Positions 32,073-41,356 of a DNA stretch of 64,000 nucleotides are shown here, in pieces. The position numbers and the translations under genes are program-made. The stretch is from an uncultured Clostridia bacterium (GTDB taxonomy: Bacteria; Bacillota; Clostridia; Oscillospirales; Acutalibacteraceae), in NCBI GenBank assembly GCA_947624285.1, contig CANQJS010000001.1:62001-126000 (forward strand), given 5' to 3'. The notes under the pieces are model-generated. The model searched no databases, was not told the origin of the DNA, and was given only the letters and a program-made list of their open reading frames with translations. The stretch's first letter is position 1; each line of letters begins with the position of its first letter.

Positions 32073-32477
32073 CTAACAGTATTTATACACAACAGCTGTT
32101 TCACTTCCTGCAGTGAAAGTAACCTTTAATCGGTAATCATAAAAAATGTTAATATTTCTTGTTTTAGATATAGCTAAACATATGCCAGTACTACTGTCAG
32201 TCCAGGTTTCTACTGTTGTGTAACCACTTGATTTATTTTTTTGTAATTCCATTTTTATTTTAAGTGTTGTGGATTTTCTTGCAGTAACAGTGGCTGCACA
32301 ACTTGCTTTAATCCCATTGATTTTTAAGTTGGTAGTATTGCCGAGCATAACAATATAGCAAGGATTTATTTCAACATCTTCCTTCTCGGCTGCATTTGCA
32401 ATTGAATAGCAACCAAAAATCAATAGAAATGACAAGCAAATTAAAATTAACCGTTTAATATGCATCTTACATTTCAT
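32073..32477 (-). CDS. Small secreted protein with signal peptide (unknown function)
   Basis: MKCKMHIKRLILICLSFLLIFGCYSIANA-AEKED signal peptide; RBS GGAGGTGAGGAAGCG-ATG; beta-rich mature part of about 105 aa. Confidence 0.8.
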   Translation of the reverse strand: MKCKMHIKRLILICLSFLLIFGCYSIANAAEKEDVEINPCYIVMLGNTTNLKINGIKASCAATVTARKSTTLKIKMELQKNKSSGYTTVETWTDSSTGICLAISKTRNINIFYDYRLKVTFTAGSETAVVYKYC

Positions 32478-32508
32478 CGCTTCCTCACCTCCATTACAAT
32501 ACTTTTAA

Positions 32509-32548
32509 TACACTTAATCTCTATAAATTCCTATTTTGTGATAAAAAA
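32509..32548 (-). promoter_or_regulatory. Candidate ECF-sigma promoter (site A)
   Basis: Minus strand TTTTTTATCACAAAA-N14-GATTAAGTGTA; same motif and spacing as the site at 34064. Confidence 0.6.
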
Positions 32549-32550
32549 AT

Positions 32551-32581
32551 AAAGAAATCTGAAAATTTTTCAGATTTCTTT
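32551..32581 (-). terminator. Intrinsic terminator of the ECF sigma/anti-sigma operon
   Basis: AAAGAAATCTG-(AAAATTTTT)-CAGATTTCTTT stem followed on the minus strand by a T-rich tract that runs into promoter site A. Confidence 0.75.
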
Positions 32582-32585
32582 TTAA

Positions 32586-33215
32586 TTATTCTGCATTCTG
32601 TGCTATTTTTAACAATTCATTCTCTTCGATGTTTCCGGTAAGCATATAAATATATTTTCCATTGTTAAAGATAATCCCGGTTTGATGCCCTCCAGCAGCT
32701 TTATATACAATATATCTTATACCATCTATATCTTTTTCTATGCTTTCATTCTTTTCCGTATCAAAATTAACTGTTGTACTAATTGGAAATTTTTGTACTG
32801 AAAAACCATAAGAATTTTTCATATAAGAGTAAATACAAAAATTATCGGACTTGAATTCATCGTTTTTTATAAATCCATCGGGAATATATCCCAAAGACAA
32901 ATATTCAACATCAATTATATCACTATTATCCAAAATGTTATATGCGGAATGTGTTTTAAACTTCTTAATCAAAAACTCTCTGCATGAGGGAATTGCCAAC
33001 GCTGTAGTTGTAATAGAAAGCAGTATTGCTGCAACAAGTATTATTTTAATTGCATTCTTCGTGAACCTATGATACTTGTCATTTCGCATTTTATCAAATA
33101 ATCTGTTCATTTTTTTCTGATGCTTTTTGCTGAAATCATGCTTTGGTATATCTGTTGGAAATGAATCGAGCCATAACTCACAAGACAGCAGGCAAGCTTC
33201 TTCAAATACAATCAC
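32586..33215 (-). CDS. DUF4367-like anti-sigma factor (single TM, extracytoplasmic DUF4367-type domain)
   Basis: Cytoplasmic HDFSKKHQKKMNRLFDKM, TM AIKIILVAAILLSITTTALAI, then DVEYLSLGYIPDGF...YIVYKAAGGHQTGIIFNNGKYIYMLTGNI; stop/start adjacency with the ECF sigma gene. Confidence 0.8.
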   Translation of the reverse strand: MIVFEEACLLSCELWLDSFPTDIPKHDFSKKHQKKMNRLFDKMRNDKYHRFTKNAIKIILVAAILLSITTTALAIPSCREFLIKKFKTHSAYNILDNSDIIDVEYLSLGYIPDGFIKNDEFKSDNFCIYSYMKNSYGFSVQKFPISTTVNFDTEKNESIEKDIDGIRYIVYKAAGGHQTGIIFNNGKYIYMLTGNIEENELLKIAQNAE

Positions 33216-33216
33216 T

Positions 33217-33759
33217 TTATAAACTCCTTTCTTCTAAATGTTTTTTCAGTTTGGTTTTTGCGTATTGCAGTTTTTTCCTTACATAAGAATCCTTAATGTT
33301 ATAAATCTCCGCTATTTCACGGCTTTTATAGCCGTATATGTATTTTAAATATAAGAAAACTCTGCTTTCTTCATCCAACACATTTTTAATAACCGTTGCT
33401 AAATATATTCTATCGAAATTTTCAAAATATTTTAATTGAGATGCTTCATTTCCGAAGGCTTCATTTTCATCATCGCTTGAAATGACATCGATTTTGTTTG
33501 ATTTGTTGTATATGTCAATTGCAAATCCGGTAACAATCGTTGATAAATAAGCTTTTGTCCTTTTGGAATATACATCGTCAATTTTATCAAAATTCTTTGC
33601 CACATAAAAGAATGTTTCTTGAACGCAATCTTCGGCGTCTTCTATATTATGGACTTTTTTCAAAGCAATCCAATACAACAAATCTTTGTATTTATCATAT
33701 AACTCTTTAAATCTATTCTTTTCTGCTTGCGTATCGAGCAGATTTAAAAAACTTATCAT
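33217..33759 (-). CDS. ECF-family RNA polymerase sigma factor
   Basis: Sigma2 DLLYWIALKKVHNIEDAEDCVQETFFYVAKNF and sigma4 DEESRVFLYLKYIYGYKSREIAEIYNIKDSYVRKKLQYAKTKLKKHLEE. Confidence 0.92.
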   Translation of the reverse strand: MISFLNLLDTQAEKNRFKELYDKYKDLLYWIALKKVHNIEDAEDCVQETFFYVAKNFDKIDDVYSKRTKAYLSTIVTGFAIDIYNKSNKIDVISSDDENEAFGNEASQLKYFENFDRIYLATVIKNVLDEESRVFLYLKYIYGYKSREIAEIYNIKDSYVRKKLQYAKTKLKKHLEERSL

Positions 33760-34103: not shown

Positions 34104-34422
34104 ATGGAGAGAGTTATAAGAATTTATAAAAAATTTTAAATATAGTGAAATTTAAAAAAACAGTTGGAAAATGAGGTGATTTTCTTGAAGAAAAAAGTAA
34201 TATCGTGAGTCCGGCTATATTTATATCAATATTACTTCTGTACCTTCTTTTTTATATTTAATTTTAAGGAAGATTTGGTCAAAATTTTAAGAATTAATAA
34301 CAATTATGCATAATATTAAAAACTTTTCTAATTGCCATATATAACAAAGTAGTAAATTCATTTTATATGAATTTATAATAATTTTTTTAAAGGAGTAGAT
34401 TTTTATGTAAAAGAAAAAAGTA

Positions 34423-34842
34423 ATGTTCGTATCAGCTTTATTGAGCATTGTTTTGTGCTTTGGCATGTTAGGAGGTGTCACCGCCGCCTTTGCCGCCTCA
34501 TCTTATTCCGATACATTTCCTTTAAATGATAGTACGGGAAAGCGTTATGGTACGATTAGTGCAAGTATTACGAAAACAAAATTGACCGGTTCTACAAGTT
34601 TTGGTGGCAATGCCAAGGATCTTTATGTTTACGGGCTTGCGGCAAGAACCGATATGGCTACAAGCAACTTGCGCAATACCCAGTACAATGAAGATCATCA
34701 AACTAATAAAACCAACGGCAGAGCTAGTATAACGATTACAGCAGATTCCGGAAAAACATTTTATTCGGGTGTTGTTGCTCATTATGTTAAAACTGATTCA
34801 AATGCTGAATACGATTTAACAGACACCGTAGATCCCAGTTAA
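34423..34842 (+). CDS. Small secreted protein (possible pseudogene: stop at codon 2 of the RBS-proximal start)
   Basis: MFVSALLSIVLCFGMLGGVTAAFA-ASSYSD signal-peptide-like; well-placed AAAGGAG with ATG at 34405, but the second codon is TAA. Confidence 0.6.
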   Translation: MFVSALLSIVLCFGMLGGVTAAFAASSYSDTFPLNDSTGKRYGTISASITKTKLTGSTSFGGNAKDLYVYGLAARTDMATSNLRNTQYNEDHQTNKTNGRASITITADSGKTFYSGVVAHYVKTDSNAEYDLTDTVDPS

Positions 34843-34956: not shown

Positions 34957-34980
34957 TATTTAATTATAAGGAAGATCTCG

Positions 34981-36108
34981 ATGAAAAAAATTATATCGTT
35001 AATAGCCGCCATTTTTTGCATTTTCGCCGTGGCGGCGATTTCGGGTTGCTCCGATAACGCACCCGATCCCGTTGAAGTTTCGGTTTCCGATGAATATATT
35101 TTTGAACAGGATTGCCCAACTTTTATTACAAACAATACTTATGTCGCTTTAACAAAGGCGCCCAACGGCTATTACTATTTTTCCGATACCAATAAATTGA
35201 CACTGTTTGATACAAATTTGAAAAAATCCACTATCGTATGCGACAAAGCCGACTGCGCGCATAACGACGACTCATGCCCGGCATATTTTGGATTTAATAT
35301 GTCTAAACATTACTCTTCCATGCATCTTCAGTATTATAACGGAAGCCTGTATACCTTTTACAGCGAAACGGATAAGGACAATGTTATAAACCATTATATC
35401 GCGCGCGTATCGCTTGACGGCAGAGAGAAGGAAAAAAAGTGTTTTCTCTTTAAATCTATCGGCGAGGCGGATTGCAATATTTTTATACACAGAGGCTGTG
35501 TGTATTTTGACCGTATGGAATATTCAGGCGATATGCAAGCTGTGAAATTATACAAGACGGGGCTTGAAGCCGGAAATTCCAAGCCGCAGGAGATATTCTC
35601 CTATACGGGAAGAGATCCCTATTTTAAAGATCTTCAATTCTTCGGAAACCACTTGTATTTTACATATAACAGCGACGACGCCGCGACTAACGGCGTAATA
35701 CTCAATGATTACGACATTCGCAGCGGCTCTGTTTCGGAAATCAAGTTAAACAACTTTTCGGGATTGTTCGCCGTCTCGGGCAGAGAAATATATTACTATG
35801 ACAATACTGCTCGGGAATTTGTAAAATATGATTTGGATTTGAAAACATACACTTCATTTTACAAGGGTGAAAACGGCAGAATTTCCATCGACGGCGAAAA
35901 GCTTTATATCGACAGTTCAACCGATACACAGCAGAACGGACTGACCCATAAAGTTTTGGCTGTGGATTTAAAAACAAAGGAAACGACCGAATACAGCTTT
36001 AATAAAGAATACAGCATCTGCCGATTTGGCGGCAGCGATTATCTTATATTTGAATACCCCGACCCGTCAACAAGAAAAACGGAATTTGAATTTATCGAAA
36101 AGCAATAA
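34981..36108 (+). CDS. Lipoprotein, probable beta-propeller extracytoplasmic domain
   Basis: Lipobox FAVAAISGC-SDNAPDP; repeated LYTFYSE/LYFTYNSDD/IYYYDN/LYIDSS blades; CDKADCAHNDDSC cysteine cluster; RBS AAGGAAG upstream of ATG 34981. Confidence 0.78.
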   Translation: MKKIISLIAAIFCIFAVAAISGCSDNAPDPVEVSVSDEYIFEQDCPTFITNNTYVALTKAPNGYYYFSDTNKLTLFDTNLKKSTIVCDKADCAHNDDSCPAYFGFNMSKHYSSMHLQYYNGSLYTFYSETDKDNVINHYIARVSLDGREKEKKCFLFKSIGEADCNIFIHRGCVYFDRMEYSGDMQAVKLYKTGLEAGNSKPQEIFSYTGRDPYFKDLQFFGNHLYFTYNSDDAATNGVILNDYDIRSGSVSEIKLNNFSGLFAVSGREIYYYDNTAREFVKYDLDLKTYTSFYKGENGRISIDGEKLYIDSSTDTQQNGLTHKVLAVDLKTKETTEYSFNKEYSICRFGGSDYLIFEYPDPSTRKTEFEFIEKQ

Positions 36109-36125
36109 CAGAAAGGTTTTAAAAT

Positions 36126-36740
36126 ATGAAAAAAATATTGATAATCGCAGGCGTAATCGCATTGGTTGTCGGCGGTGCGTTTGGCGCTTATTTCGGTTAC
36201 GGCTCCTCAACTTTCCTCAACCCTTCAAACGAGGCGCAGCTTATCAAGTTTCTAACAGTTGATGAAGACAGCCCGCCTCCTTTAATACGAAAAACAAAAT
36301 ATGTGGAAGACGGTCAGGTGTTTGTTGTTTTATACGATTCATATGCTTACGGCGAGAAAAAGCTTTGCCTTATGCAATTCACTAAGAATAAATATTACAT
36401 CAACAGATACGAATATAAAGGTTCCGGGCGAATGTCTTATCCTTCGGCAGATGCAGCTATGCGTCTCGACCAAATAGCATTCGATGATGAATATATAGAA
36501 AAAGAGCTGCGTAATGAAGACGGAACAGAAAAAATGTTTTTCTGCGTATCCGCTAAAATCAGCGAGGGAAAAACATATGAATATACCGTTAAGCGTGACG
36601 GAGAAATCATAAAATCCGACAAGATTTCCAATTCAGACGATGATTATCTTGAAGTTTTTTCAGTTGATAATCTGTCCGAAGATTTGGATAGTGATAATTT
36701 TTGGCTTGACACTATCATTTTTGATTATAAAGTCACTTAA
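36126..36740 (+). CDS. Membrane-anchored extracytoplasmic protein, tandem paralogue 1
   Basis: N-terminal TM MKKILIIAGVIALVVGGAFGAYFGYG; homologous to the next two ORFs. Confidence 0.82.
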   Translation: MKKILIIAGVIALVVGGAFGAYFGYGSSTFLNPSNEAQLIKFLTVDEDSPPPLIRKTKYVEDGQVFVVLYDSYAYGEKKLCLMQFTKNKYYINRYEYKGSGRMSYPSADAAMRLDQIAFDDEYIEKELRNEDGTEKMFFCVSAKISEGKTYEYTVKRDGEIIKSDKISNSDDDYLEVFSVDNLSEDLDSDNFWLDTIIFDYKVT

Positions 36741-36799
36741 ATTCTCAAAAGGCATTCTTTTAACGGCTTTCCTTCGCTCAAACAGAAAGGTTTTAAAAT

Positions 36800-37393
36800 A
36801 TGAAAAAAATATTGATAATCGCAGGCGTAATCGCATTGGTTGTCGGCGGTGCGTTTGGCGCTTATTTCGGTTACGGCTCAACTTTCCTCAACCCTTCAAA
36901 CGAAACGCAGCTTATCAAGTTTCTTACAGTTGATGAAGACAGCCCGCCTCCCCTGATACGAAAAACAAAATATGTTGAAGACGGTCAGGCATTTATTGTT
37001 TTATACGATTCATATGCTTACGGCGAGAAATCGCTTTGCCTTTTTCAATTCACCAAGGTTAAATATTACAACAACAGATACGAATTTAGAGCTTCCACAC
37101 GAATGTCTTATCCTTGGGCAGATGAAGCTATGAGTCTTGACCAAATAGTATTCGATGATGAATATGAGGGAAAAGAGCTGTATCATGAAGACGGAACAAA
37201 AAAAATGTTTTTCTGCGTATCCGCTAAAATCAGCGAGGGAAAAACATATGAATATACCGTTAAGCGTGACGGAGAAATCATAAAATCCGACAAGATTTCC
37301 GATTCAGACGATGACTATCTTGAAGTATTTTCTGTTGATAATCTGTCCAATGATTGGGATGAAGTTGTCATTTTTGATTATAAAGTCACTTAA
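36800..37393 (+). CDS. Membrane-anchored extracytoplasmic protein, tandem paralogue 2
   Basis: Near-identical to the ORF at 37453, with a 300-nt identical core. Confidence 0.82.
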   Translation: MKKILIIAGVIALVVGGAFGAYFGYGSTFLNPSNETQLIKFLTVDEDSPPPLIRKTKYVEDGQAFIVLYDSYAYGEKSLCLFQFTKVKYYNNRYEFRASTRMSYPWADEAMSLDQIVFDDEYEGKELYHEDGTKKMFFCVSAKISEGKTYEYTVKRDGEIIKSDKISDSDDDYLEVFSVDNLSNDWDEVVIFDYKVT

Positions 37394-37452
37394 ATTCTCA
37401 AAAGGCTTTCTTTTAACGGCTTTCCTTCGCTCAAACAGAAAGGTTTTAAAAT

Positions 37453-38046
37453 ATGAAAAAAATATTGATAATCGCAGCTGTAATCGCATTGGTTGTCGGC
37501 GGCGTGTTTGGCGCTTATTTCGGCTACGGCTCAACTTTCCTCAACCCTTCAAACGAGACGCAGCTTATCAAGTTTCTAACAGTTGATGAAGACAGCCCGC
37601 CTCCCTTAATACGAAAGACAAAATATGTTGAAGGCGGGCACACATTTATTGTTTTATTCGATTCATATGCTTACGGCGAGAAATCGCTTTGCCTTTTTCA
37701 ATTCACCAAGGTTAAATATTACAACAACAGATACGAATTTAGAGCTTCCACACGAATGTCTTATCCTTGGGCAGATGAAGCTATGAGTCTTGACCAAATA
37801 GTATTCGATGATGAATATGAGGGAAAAGAGCTGTATCATGAAGACGGAACAAAAAAAATGTTTTTCTGCGTATCCGCTAAAATCAGCGAGGGAAAAACAT
37901 ATGAATATACCGTTAAGCGTGACGGAGAAATCATAAAATCCGACAAGATTTCCGATTCCGACGGTGATTATCTTGAAGTTTTTTCTGTTGATAATCTTTC
38001 CAATGATTGGGATGAAGTTGTCATTTTGGATTATGAAGTCACTTAA
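37453..38046 (+). CDS. Membrane-anchored extracytoplasmic protein, tandem paralogue 3
   Basis: Near-identical to the ORF at 36800. Confidence 0.82.
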   Translation: MKKILIIAAVIALVVGGVFGAYFGYGSTFLNPSNETQLIKFLTVDEDSPPPLIRKTKYVEGGHTFIVLFDSYAYGEKSLCLFQFTKVKYYNNRYEFRASTRMSYPWADEAMSLDQIVFDDEYEGKELYHEDGTKKMFFCVSAKISEGKTYEYTVKRDGEIIKSDKISDSDGDYLEVFSVDNLSNDWDEVVILDYEVT

Positions 38047-38103
38047 ATTCAAAAGGCATTATTTTAACGGCTTCCCTTCGCTCAAATAGGATGATGATTC
38101 CAG

Positions 38104-40491
38104 ATGAAAAACTACGAAATCGCAAGAATTTTCAGAAATAAGATACTCATATCAATATTGTTGGTTTTCATTGCATTGCAGCTTATGATAACGGCGAGCA
38201 TTGAAACGAACAATTTAAAATATTTATATAATTCCGACGGACCTGACGAGTATTCCGAAATATACAGTGAATATTTACAAGATGACGGAGATAAAAAAGG
38301 CGAGCTGTATGAGGGGCTCGAGAATGTAGAAGATGTTATTGGCGACCCCGAAGATATTCTCGGAATGGACTTTGTGCGCGAGCTGTATCCCGACGCCGTA
38401 AAATATTATGAAGAAAACAGGGACAATATTGATTTTGAAAAAATAAGAGCTTTCAGCAGTATAAATCGTGATCGTAAAAGCAAGCTCGATTATCTCAGCC
38501 AATATCACGACTATATTGAGGATATCATCTCTCAAGCGGAGGATAAATCCGGATTTTCTGTTTTTCAAAACAGCTCTTTTTCCACGAGAAACATAAAAAA
38601 GACAGCCGACGATTACGGCAAAACACAAAATTTTGTTTTAACCGAAACGAACACCGCCGCGTTTGATAATGCGATCGCGAATGAATTTTCGGGCTATTTT
38701 TCACTTATCATATGTTTAATATTTTCTGTTTTCGCTTTCAAAAGCCGTAATACCGAAACGGAGCTGTGTATCAGAAGCTGTAAAAACGGCAGAATATCCC
38801 TGCTTTTTAAAAGAATTCGGGCGATGGCGTTATTTACGGCTCTGACTGTGATTTTGGTCAATATATCCAACTATCTCTATTACGGATATATATACGGCTA
38901 CGATCTCGATTGGTCGGCAAATGTCAGATCATCCGCGCTTTTTGCAAACTTTTTGTATAACATAAATTTCGCGCAAGCCGCCGTTGTGATTTTGATATTT
39001 AAATTTGAAGCTTTATTCCTGATTTCTCTCATAACATACCTTATCTTTTATTCGGTTAAAAACTTTGGAATGGCTTCAATCGCCACAGCCGCTTTTCTCA
39101 TCGTTGAAAATCTGTTATATAACCTCGTTCCGATATACAGCCCGCTTTCCTTTTTCAAAGTGGCTAATCTCTTTTATTTCTTGGAGCCGACTGCCGCGCT
39201 GAAATATTCCAACATTTCGATATTCGGCTTTCCGTTTAGAGCTGAAATGGTTTTCACGGTTTCCGCGTTTATATTTATCATTCTGTTTTCAATGTTGAAT
39301 GCGCTTGCGGTTAAACTCAGTTATCCTATAAAGAGCAAAAGTAAATTGGAATATCGCTTAAATTCCTTTACCGTAAAAGCCGAAAATCTTTTAAATCGAC
39401 TGAAAAGCAAAATTTTTTCAAAGCATATTGAAACATATAAATTTTTATTTTCTCAGAAAATGATCGTTGTATTCATTATCTTTGCGATAATTTTAGCAAA
39501 CGGTTATTCCTTCGGCGAATACGGCAGAAGCGCCGTCAACGGTTATCTCAACACATTTTACAATGATTACGGAGGCAAGCTGAATGACAAGGCGCTGAAA
39601 AGCATTGAAAAAACCGAATCGATGCTGAGCGCGGCGCAAGAAGAAAGAGATAGTTATTATAACGATTATCTTCAAGAAAAAATAAGCGAAGATGAGTACT
39701 ATTTAAAGATCTCCTACTTACCCGAATACAATACCGAGGAAAAAGCAATAGGCATATTGCGTTCTCAAATTGATTACATCAACGAGGAGCTTTCAAACGG
39801 ATTTGAGGCATACCTGATTCCTCAAGATGATTATAACACATTGTGTGGTGTTGAATCTCTTGATTACGAAAACAGCTTTTCTCTTTATCTTATCATAATT
39901 GCGCTGCTTTTTACCTACGGCATAACGGCAAGCGACAAGAATAAAAATATTTTAACGATTCTGCATTCATGCAAATACGGAAGAAAACGGCTGTTTTATA
40001 AAAAGGCTTCGCTGTTAGCGGCAAGCACGGTATTGGTCTATGCCTTTTGCGTAGTATTCAGATTGCTGTATTACCGTAATTATATTCATCTCAAATATTT
40101 GTCCGCTCCCCTGCAAAGTCTTGAGACTTTCGCTCAGTTCCCCATAAAAATAAGTATCCTTAACTATTATATAATTATAAATCTTGTTAGGCTGGTAATG
40201 CTGCTGGCTGTTGAATTTGTTATGCTGTATATATGCGTTCGATTAAGCGCGCAGACGGCGTTGATTACAAACACTTGCATTTTTGCGGTGCCGTCTGTTT
40301 TTATGATAATGGGAGCAGACTTCGCAGCCGATTACTCTGTTATAAAGTATCTGAATTTTTTGAACGGCTATCTTGAGAGCGGAACACGAAGTATAAATAT
40401 ATATTGGATCGAATTGGCAGCGGCGGCGGCAATTATGTTTATCTTTATTTGGCTTGCCCGCAAAAAGTTTACCGTAACAGGGAGAAAGTAA
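38104..40491 (+). CDS. Large ABC-2-like permease, apparently a fused tandem of two permease domains
   Basis: Two TM/extracytoplasmic/TM modules; the repeated cytoplasmic motif TELCIRSCKNGRISLLFKR and KNILTILHSCKYGRKRLFYKK follows the second TM of each half; stop adjoins the ATPase start. Confidence 0.75.
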   Translation: MKNYEIARIFRNKILISILLVFIALQLMITASIETNNLKYLYNSDGPDEYSEIYSEYLQDDGDKKGELYEGLENVEDVIGDPEDILGMDFVRELYPDAVKYYEENRDNIDFEKIRAFSSINRDRKSKLDYLSQYHDYIEDIISQAEDKSGFSVFQNSSFSTRNIKKTADDYGKTQNFVLTETNTAAFDNAIANEFSGYFSLIICLIFSVFAFKSRNTETELCIRSCKNGRISLLFKRIRAMALFTALTVILVNISNYLYYGYIYGYDLDWSANVRSSALFANFLYNINFAQAAVVILIFKFEALFLISLITYLIFYSVKNFGMASIATAAFLIVENLLYNLVPIYSPLSFFKVANLFYFLEPTAALKYSNISIFGFPFRAEMVFTVSAFIFIILFSMLNALAVKLSYPIKSKSKLEYRLNSFTVKAENLLNRLKSKIFSKHIETYKFLFSQKMIVVFIIFAIILANGYSFGEYGRSAVNGYLNTFYNDYGGKLNDKALKSIEKTESMLSAAQEERDSYYNDYLQEKISEDEYYLKISYLPEYNTEEKAIGILRSQIDYINEELSNGFEAYLIPQDDYNTLCGVESLDYENSFSLYLIIIALLFTYGITASDKNKNILTILHSCKYGRKRLFYKKASLLAASTVLVYAFCVVFRLLYYRNYIHLKYLSAPLQSLETFAQFPIKISILNYYIIINLVRLVMLLAVEFVMLYICVRLSAQTALITNTCIFAVPSVFMIMGADFAADYSVIKYLNFLNGYLESGTRSINIYWIELAAAAAIMFIFIWLARKKFTVTGRK

Positions 40492-40492
40492 T

Positions 40493-41356
40493 ATGGAACT
40501 TGAAATCATCGGCTTAACAAAAAAATACAATGACAATACGGCGCTCGATAATTTTACCGGCAAATTTTCTTACGGAATATACGGGATTCTCGGTCCAAAC
40601 GGATCGGGTAAATCTACTCTTTTTAATTTGCTTACCGATAATCTTGTTCCAACCGCCGGAAAGATACTGCTTGACGGTAAAAGTATTTTGGAAATGGGCG
40701 GCGAATACAGAGCGCGCCTTGGATATATGCCTCAGCGTCAGGGCTTTTATGAGGATTTCACGGCAAAAATGTTTCTAAAATATTTTTGTTCTCTCAAGGG
40801 AATCAAGCCTAAAGATAAATATGTTGAGCAAATTCTTGAAAATGTTAATCTGTTGGATGTAAAAAATTCAAAGATTTCCTCTCTCTCCGGAGGGATGAAG
40901 CAAAGGCTTCTCTTTGCGCAGGCAATTCTGAATGATCCCGAAATCCTGATTTTGGATGAGCCTACGGCAGGACTTGATCCAAAGGAAAGAATAAACTTCA
41001 GAAATATGCTTGCGTCTTTATCGAAAAATAAGATAATTCTCATAGCAACGCATATCGTTTCGGACATAGAAAGCATTGCCGATAATGTTGTTTTGCTCAA
41101 AAAAGGAAAAATACTTATTCGGGATTCGCCTGAAAATCTGATGAACAGCATACAAAACAAGGTTTACGAAATTCGCGGCTCGAAAGATGAACTTCTTAGT
41201 AAAAGAAGCGAAACGGGCATGGGAAATATAATTCACGATCAAAGCGGAATTGCTTTAAGGGTCGTAACCGATGAGCCTTATGAGAACTGCATTCCCGTAG
41301 AAAACAACATTTCTCTTGAAGATGTTTATCTTTATTACTTTGAATATTTAAAATAA
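40493..41356 (+). CDS. ABC transporter ATP-binding protein
   Basis: GPNGSGKSTL, Q-loop, LSGGMKQRLLFAQAIL, ILILDEPTAGLDP, ATHIV. Confidence 0.95.
   Translation: MELEIIGLTKKYNDNTALDNFTGKFSYGIYGILGPNGSGKSTLFNLLTDNLVPTAGKILLDGKSILEMGGEYRARLGYMPQRQGFYEDFTAKMFLKYFCSLKGIKPKDKYVEQILENVNLLDVKNSKISSLSGGMKQRLLFAQAILNDPEILILDEPTAGLDPKERINFRNMLASLSKNKIILIATHIVSDIESIADNVVLLKKGKILIRDSPENLMNSIQNKVYEIRGSKDELLSKRSETGMGNIIHDQSGIALRVVTDEPYENCIPVENNISLEDVYLYYFEYLK

Follow-up and report, generated by a model that had tools for sequence, protein, structure and literature searches.

Gene X is triplicated in an uncultured bacterium

In an uncultured Ruminococcaceae-type bacterium, a gene coding for a small membrane-anchored surface protein, hereafter gene X, is present as three tandem, head-to-tail, in-frame copies, the second of which is a mosaic sharing an uninterrupted tract of 300 nt with the third. 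The account that we consider probable is that X is an accessory protein of the transporter encoded next to it, and that the array was formed by duplication and recombination and later changed by the transfer of a tract from copy 3 to copy 2.

The window, i.e. the whole stretch of DNA analysed, contains 64,000 nucleotides. X copy 1 (36126..36740, plus strand, 204 aa) was delimited by its ORF, the alignment and divergence counts, and X copy 2 (36800..37393, plus strand, 197 aa) and X copy 3 (37453..38046, plus strand, 197 aa) by ORF and alignment. The start-to-start distances are 674 nt from copy 1 to copy 2 and 653 nt from copy 2 to copy 3, and each unit, starting at 36126, 36800 and 37453, carries its own RBS and spacer, just as the original prediction had it. 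The alignment gives copy 1 one additional codon near residue 27 and six additional codons near its end. For the alignment statistics each indel was counted as one column and the six non-homologous end columns were removed, and of the resulting 654 columns 70 are variable, with 44 being private to copy 1, 7 to copy 2 and 19 to copy 3.

An identical tract in copies 2 and 3

The 300-nt identity between copies 2 and 3 that had been noted by eye is exact and forms a single run, in which 37006..37305 of copy 2, the probable recipient, equals 37659..37958 of copy 3, the probable donor (both on the plus strand). The two copies are unlike elsewhere, as was also proposed: 26 of the remaining 354 columns differ, which corresponds to 7.3% outside the tract versus 0 inside it. 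A run of such length was reached in 0 of 20,000 shuffles. Within the tract, all 28 variable columns set copy 1 apart from copies 2 and 3, while outside it 16, 7 and 19 columns are private to copies 1, 2 and 3, respectively. Synonymous changes between copies 2 and 3 number 13 in about 67 sites (approximately 19%) outside the tract and 0 in about 56 sites inside, and the chance of finding no synonymous change over the latter is P ~5e-6, which rules out selection on the protein as the explanation of this identity.

There is thus good support for duplication combined with gene conversion or another non-reciprocal exchange of the same effect, the array having the features expected in such a case, namely head-to-tail paralogues, a tract whose identity extends to synonymous sites, and a relative with only one copy at this place in the operon (see below). 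The part of the original prediction that has to be given up is the recent date of the duplication: dS between copies 2 and 3 is 0.21-0.26 outside the tract, so only the homogenisation is recent.

Direction of the transfer

The distance between copies 1 and 3 is uniform, with 9.9% outside the tract and 9.3% inside, whereas that between copies 1 and 2 climbs from 6.5% outside to 9.3% inside, and for this reason copy 2 appears to have received copy 3 sequence. A transfer from copy 3 to copy 2 is the most likely direction judging from the aligned copies, the likelihood ratio of 5.5 over the reverse being modest. Where the amino-acid sequences of copies 2 and 3 disagree, it is mostly copy 3 that has the private residue.

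At the 5' end, copies 1 and 2 share a 96-nt block on the plus strand (36107..36202 being identical to 36781-36876) in which copy 3 differs at 5 sites. This block hints at a second exchange (run test, p = 0.05). A single unequal crossing-over as the only cause of the mosaic was rejected since copy 2 agrees at its 5' end with copy 1 and not with copy 3; at least two exchanges, or a faster rate of change in the terminal parts of copy 3, are needed.

The same sequences bear on another order of events, in which duplication came last, unequal crossing-over having made copy 2 as a hybrid, with the 300-nt identity left as a remnant of its youth. Indeed, within positions 228-673 of the unit, copy 2 matches copy 3 first and resembles copy 1 at the 3' end, in the manner of a Q/P hybrid. 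A hybrid of this kind should, however, match copy 3 at its 5' side, yet 15 of the first 227 columns differ and the first 96 nt are those of copy 1, and on the 3' side of the tract another 11 columns separate copies 2 and 3, so that we regard a late origin of copy 2 as unlikely.

Origin of the array

Spacer 1-2 (36741..36799, plus strand) contains the duplication junction CGCTCA/AACAGAAAGG at 36780/36781, and the same junction is found in spacer 2-3 (37394..37452, plus strand) at 37433/37434, both internal junctions being identical and reading CTTCGCTCA/AACAGAAAGG. The outer borders of the array are GCAAT/AACAGAAAGG and CTTCGCTCA/AATAGGATG; they have only the letters AA in common, and the first duplication therefore fits a microhomology join. 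The dS values among the X copies are 0.11-0.13 for whole genes and 0.16-0.26 for the end regions.

A single ancestral X gene located between the lipoprotein and permease genes would have been duplicated through a junction with 2 nt of homology, after which homologous recombination between the repeats, reusing the same junction as in the accordion model (PMC7360770), may have extended the array to three copies. The copies would then have drifted to about 6.5-10% divergence, and recently a tract of about 300 nt would have passed between copies 2 and 3, likeliest from 3 to 2, by intra-array gene conversion or its equivalent, a transfer that would keep the two alike in the middle of the gene and different at the ends. 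We infer that the exchange among the copies was ordinary homologous recombination. Gene conversion itself is an ordinary and well-known process, and it is the X family and its operon that appear to be undescribed.

The operon and its neighbours

The genes are arranged in the order: secreted beta protein, propeller-like lipoprotein, X1, X2, X3, ABC-2-type permease, ATPase. The intergenic gaps from the lipoprotein gene to the ATPase gene are 17, 59, 59, 57 and 1 nt, which fits an operon. A scan for sigma-70 promoters gave no excess over shuffles.

The gene for the small secreted beta-rich protein (34405..34842, plus strand) was identified through homologues with a signal peptide and the beta-sandwich model of the UBA3323 homologue. 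It has a good RBS, AAGGAG, at 34390-34395 and an ATG at 34405, followed by a TAA at codon 2 (34408-34410), with the frame reopening from the ATG at 34423, and as read from the sequence the gene is probably broken or translated by re-initiation. The propeller-like lipoprotein gene (34978..36108, plus strand) codes for 376 aa. Its product has no match to DUF5050 (PF16472), and a remote relative at locus L131 scores 21.5 bits, below the cut-off of 27. The probable ABC-2-type permease (38104..40491, plus strand, 795 aa) was assigned through its relatives: the window protein has no Pfam match above cut-off, and the homologue at L131, recovered with the permease profile at E = 1.8e-66, matches PF12698 with 35.3 bits (cut-off 31.6). 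The ABC ATPase (40493..41356, plus strand, 287 aa) matches PF00005 with 109.4 bits (cut-off 25).

On the minus strand at 32073-33759 there is a divergent set of genes coding for an ECF sigma factor, a DUF4367 anti-sigma factor and a small exported protein, and a related trio stands before the X locus in genome G026 (L010). The sigma/anti-sigma pair was considered as a member of the unit and rejected, as the anti-sigma family occurs in 19 of the 80 genus genomes and three times in the source genome, and adjoins X only in the window and G026.

Protein X

No family could be assigned to X in Pfam, NCBIfam, PADLOC, PHROGs or the PDB sequence search, so the family is new with respect to these libraries. 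Besides a transmembrane helix at residues 2-26, the structure model shows one short helix, the rest of the outer part being beta, with a low mean pLDDT of 60 and residues 105-145 being poorly predicted. The fold search returned nothing below E = 0.1, and partial matches to cystatin- and NTF2-like sheets are too weak for use. With low confidence, X is predicted to be a small single-pass membrane protein whose outer domain is mostly beta. Given its neighbourhood, it would act as an extracytoplasmic accessory of the ABC-2-type transporter operon. The three copies may serve dosage or a wider choice of ligands, or no purpose at all.

Relatives in the same genus and order

Genome G073 of the same genus (L048) has the lipoprotein, a single X (194 aa), the permease and the ATPase in the order seen in the window, indicating that the triplication is an in-place, lineage-specific expansion. 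At 10600-11300 of L048 (minus strand) the secreted-protein gene of G073 is split by an insert whose ends are inverted (AAGCATTGGAAAGCAAGCAGA and the complementary sequence); together with the TAA at codon 2 in the window, this means that both genomes with that gene order have a damaged secreted-protein gene.

A single X is also present at loci in G026, G015 and G004, in all three of which the secreted-protein gene lies directly before X, while in the window and in G073 the two are not adjacent. G062 (L045, 1263-3575) carries two tandem pairs of secreted-protein gene and X, which are strongly diverged from one another. In G102 the secreted-protein gene and X are repeated in two dispersed sets; this genome retains X and the lipoprotein, and the permease was not detected there. 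In G074 (L049, 1-3989) the lipoprotein gene is duplicated, with decay in the second of its copies as well as in X and the permease.

Of the 80 genus genomes, 8 have clear matches to X, and these are also the 8 with the lipoprotein (P ~3e-11, a value which overstates the co-occurrence because genomes of one genus are related). Of 396 genomes of the order, the window's own was the only one in which X was found, and the permease family was recovered from 46, belonging to 28 of the 168 genera sampled. Outside the family of the window, permease and ATPase stand beside one to four lipoprotein paralogues; at L128, L129, L130, L131 and L133 these are two to four propeller-like lipoprotein genes in tandem, with L130 (25-6673) containing four tandem lipoproteins of 72-78% DNA identity and without long identical tracts. 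A response regulator and a histidine kinase are often located beside the lipoproteins, ATPase and permease at transporter loci elsewhere in the order. The locus type consisting of an ABC-2 transporter and tandem lipoproteins is widespread in the order and apparently unnamed. A candidate homology between the secreted protein and a 151-aa protein of L131 was dropped, the similarity being weak and mostly confined to the signal peptide.

A possible immunity role of X

The pairing of the secreted-protein gene with X in five genomes (G004, G015, G026, G062, G102) suggests an immunity role at the level of gene order. X would then protect against the secreted beta protein, and the array would be an expanded immunity set like those of esaG and tipC. 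Consistent with this are the position of the secreted-protein gene right before X in the first three of these genomes, the duplication of the pair in G062 and its repetition in G102, the fact that tandem immunity paralogues of Firmicutes recombine likewise (PMC9484751), and the confident beta-sandwich model of the secreted protein, obtained for the UBA3323 homologue. Against it, searches against toxin, bacteriocin and immunity families gave nothing above cut-off, the fold search with the secreted protein gave generic beta-sandwiches, none of them significant, and the secreted-protein genes of the window and of G073 are damaged and not adjacent to X. On balance an immunity function of the array seems improbable. 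A fuller version, which we hold to be quite unlikely, sees in the secreted beta-sandwich protein and X a so far undescribed antagonism pair of Clostridia. The former would attack competitors, X, the lipoprotein and the ABC-2 transporter would give immunity, and the tandem X array would be an immunity set orphaned when the secreted-protein gene was disabled and since then reshaped by recombination.

Copy number and assembly

The evidence for the array comes from a single MAG assembly of one strain, 75% complete and in 27 contigs, and no other assembly of the species came to light. No fourth copy of X is present in this source genome (1.59 Mb, 75% complete), and a scan of the genome_contigs collection with X as query found no relative.

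The array might in principle be an assembly artefact, with fewer true copies, or with the 300-nt identity being the consensus of two unlike copies, considering the incomplete and fragmented source, the length of the identity, which exceeds one short read, and the miscounting of a published esaG array in one assembly (PMC9484751). The sequence argues otherwise: columns with private changes number 44, 7 and 19 in copies 1, 2 and 3, copy 1 has insertions of its own, the two junctions are clean, none of the three frames is interrupted, and collapsed repeats lose copies and do not create them. A false triplication is unlikely because of the private changes and because the only path that uses all the sequence is presumably the one with three copies, and an artefact of either kind is to be considered very unlikely.

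The block common to all three copies and the divergent middle

A stretch identical in all three copies, put at about 95 nt in the original prediction, is present and is slightly longer, comprising 101 nt at 36529..36629, 37200-37300 and 37853-37953 in the alignment (plus strand). Its shuffle p value is 0.00035 for all sites and 0.07 for synonymous sites alone, so purifying selection may account for the three-way identity. The notion of a homogenised core accordingly holds firmly for copies 2 and 3, and the block common to all three may reflect purifying selection instead. That the whole core identity stems from selection on the sequence rather than exchange is extremely improbable in spite of the non-significant synonymous test of the three-way block (p = 0.07), since copies 2 and 3 are identical across 300 nt including synonymous sites and copy 1 differs there at 28 places.

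Copy 1 is distinct mostly in the middle of the gene, as expected, with 23.3 nonsynonymous and 3.7 synonymous changes versus copies 2 and 3 in codons 70-138. Omega is 1.5 in this region, where synonymous changes are too scarce for a value of 1 to be rejected, and the ratio of nonsynonymous to synonymous changes differs from that in codons 0-70 (Fisher p = 0.003) and, less strongly, from that in all other codons (p = 0.027). The data suggest that an exposed domain may have diversified, omega itself not being significantly above 1.

Comparison with known systems

The esaG and tipC tandem immunity paralogues from type VII secretion loci of Firmicutes and the lpl lipoproteins are known to recombine (PMC9484751). 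Like the X array, esaG and tipC are tandem non-identical paralogues in which exchange via homology blocks gives mosaics and alters copy number, and they likewise have a central conserved block of roughly 100 nt (PMC9484751). Unlike them, the X array lies in an operon without a type VII toxin or secretion gene, has three copies only, and shows no sequence relation that could be found. The csa1/lpl arrays of Staphylococcus aureus, called "gene accordions", resemble it as tandem genes for surface-anchored proteins that expand by recombination (PMC7360770); X differs in being anchored by a transmembrane helix and not by a lipobox and in its location within an ABC transporter operon.

In outline, the X locus is also similar to lactococcin 972-type operons, where a small Sec-type secreted beta-rich protein is encoded beside membrane and ABC genes (PMC11796350), but its ATPase is nearest to GldA/DrrA models, and the lipoprotein and X have no counterpart there. 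The secreted protein, permease and X matched no model of lactococcin 972 or its immunity in NCBIfam and Pfam up to E = 1, and with the L_ocin_972 ABC model only the generic window ATPase scores, far below cut-off. The lipoprotein loci of the order (L128-L134) share with the X locus the homologous permease and ATPase, adjoining lipoproteins and tandem paralogues of an outer component; they differ in the absence of X and in the response regulator and histidine kinase that are often adjacent.

As an example of gene conversion within an array, the X locus of this uncultured bacterium is small and clean: a relative has one copy at the same position, and the copies carry a directional signal. The exposed parts of this transporter have been duplicated in various ways, namely as lipoproteins in other genera, as X here and as pairs of secreted protein and X in G062, and outer parts that expand repeatedly while the transporter stays fixed would be expected of a system facing variable ligands or attackers.
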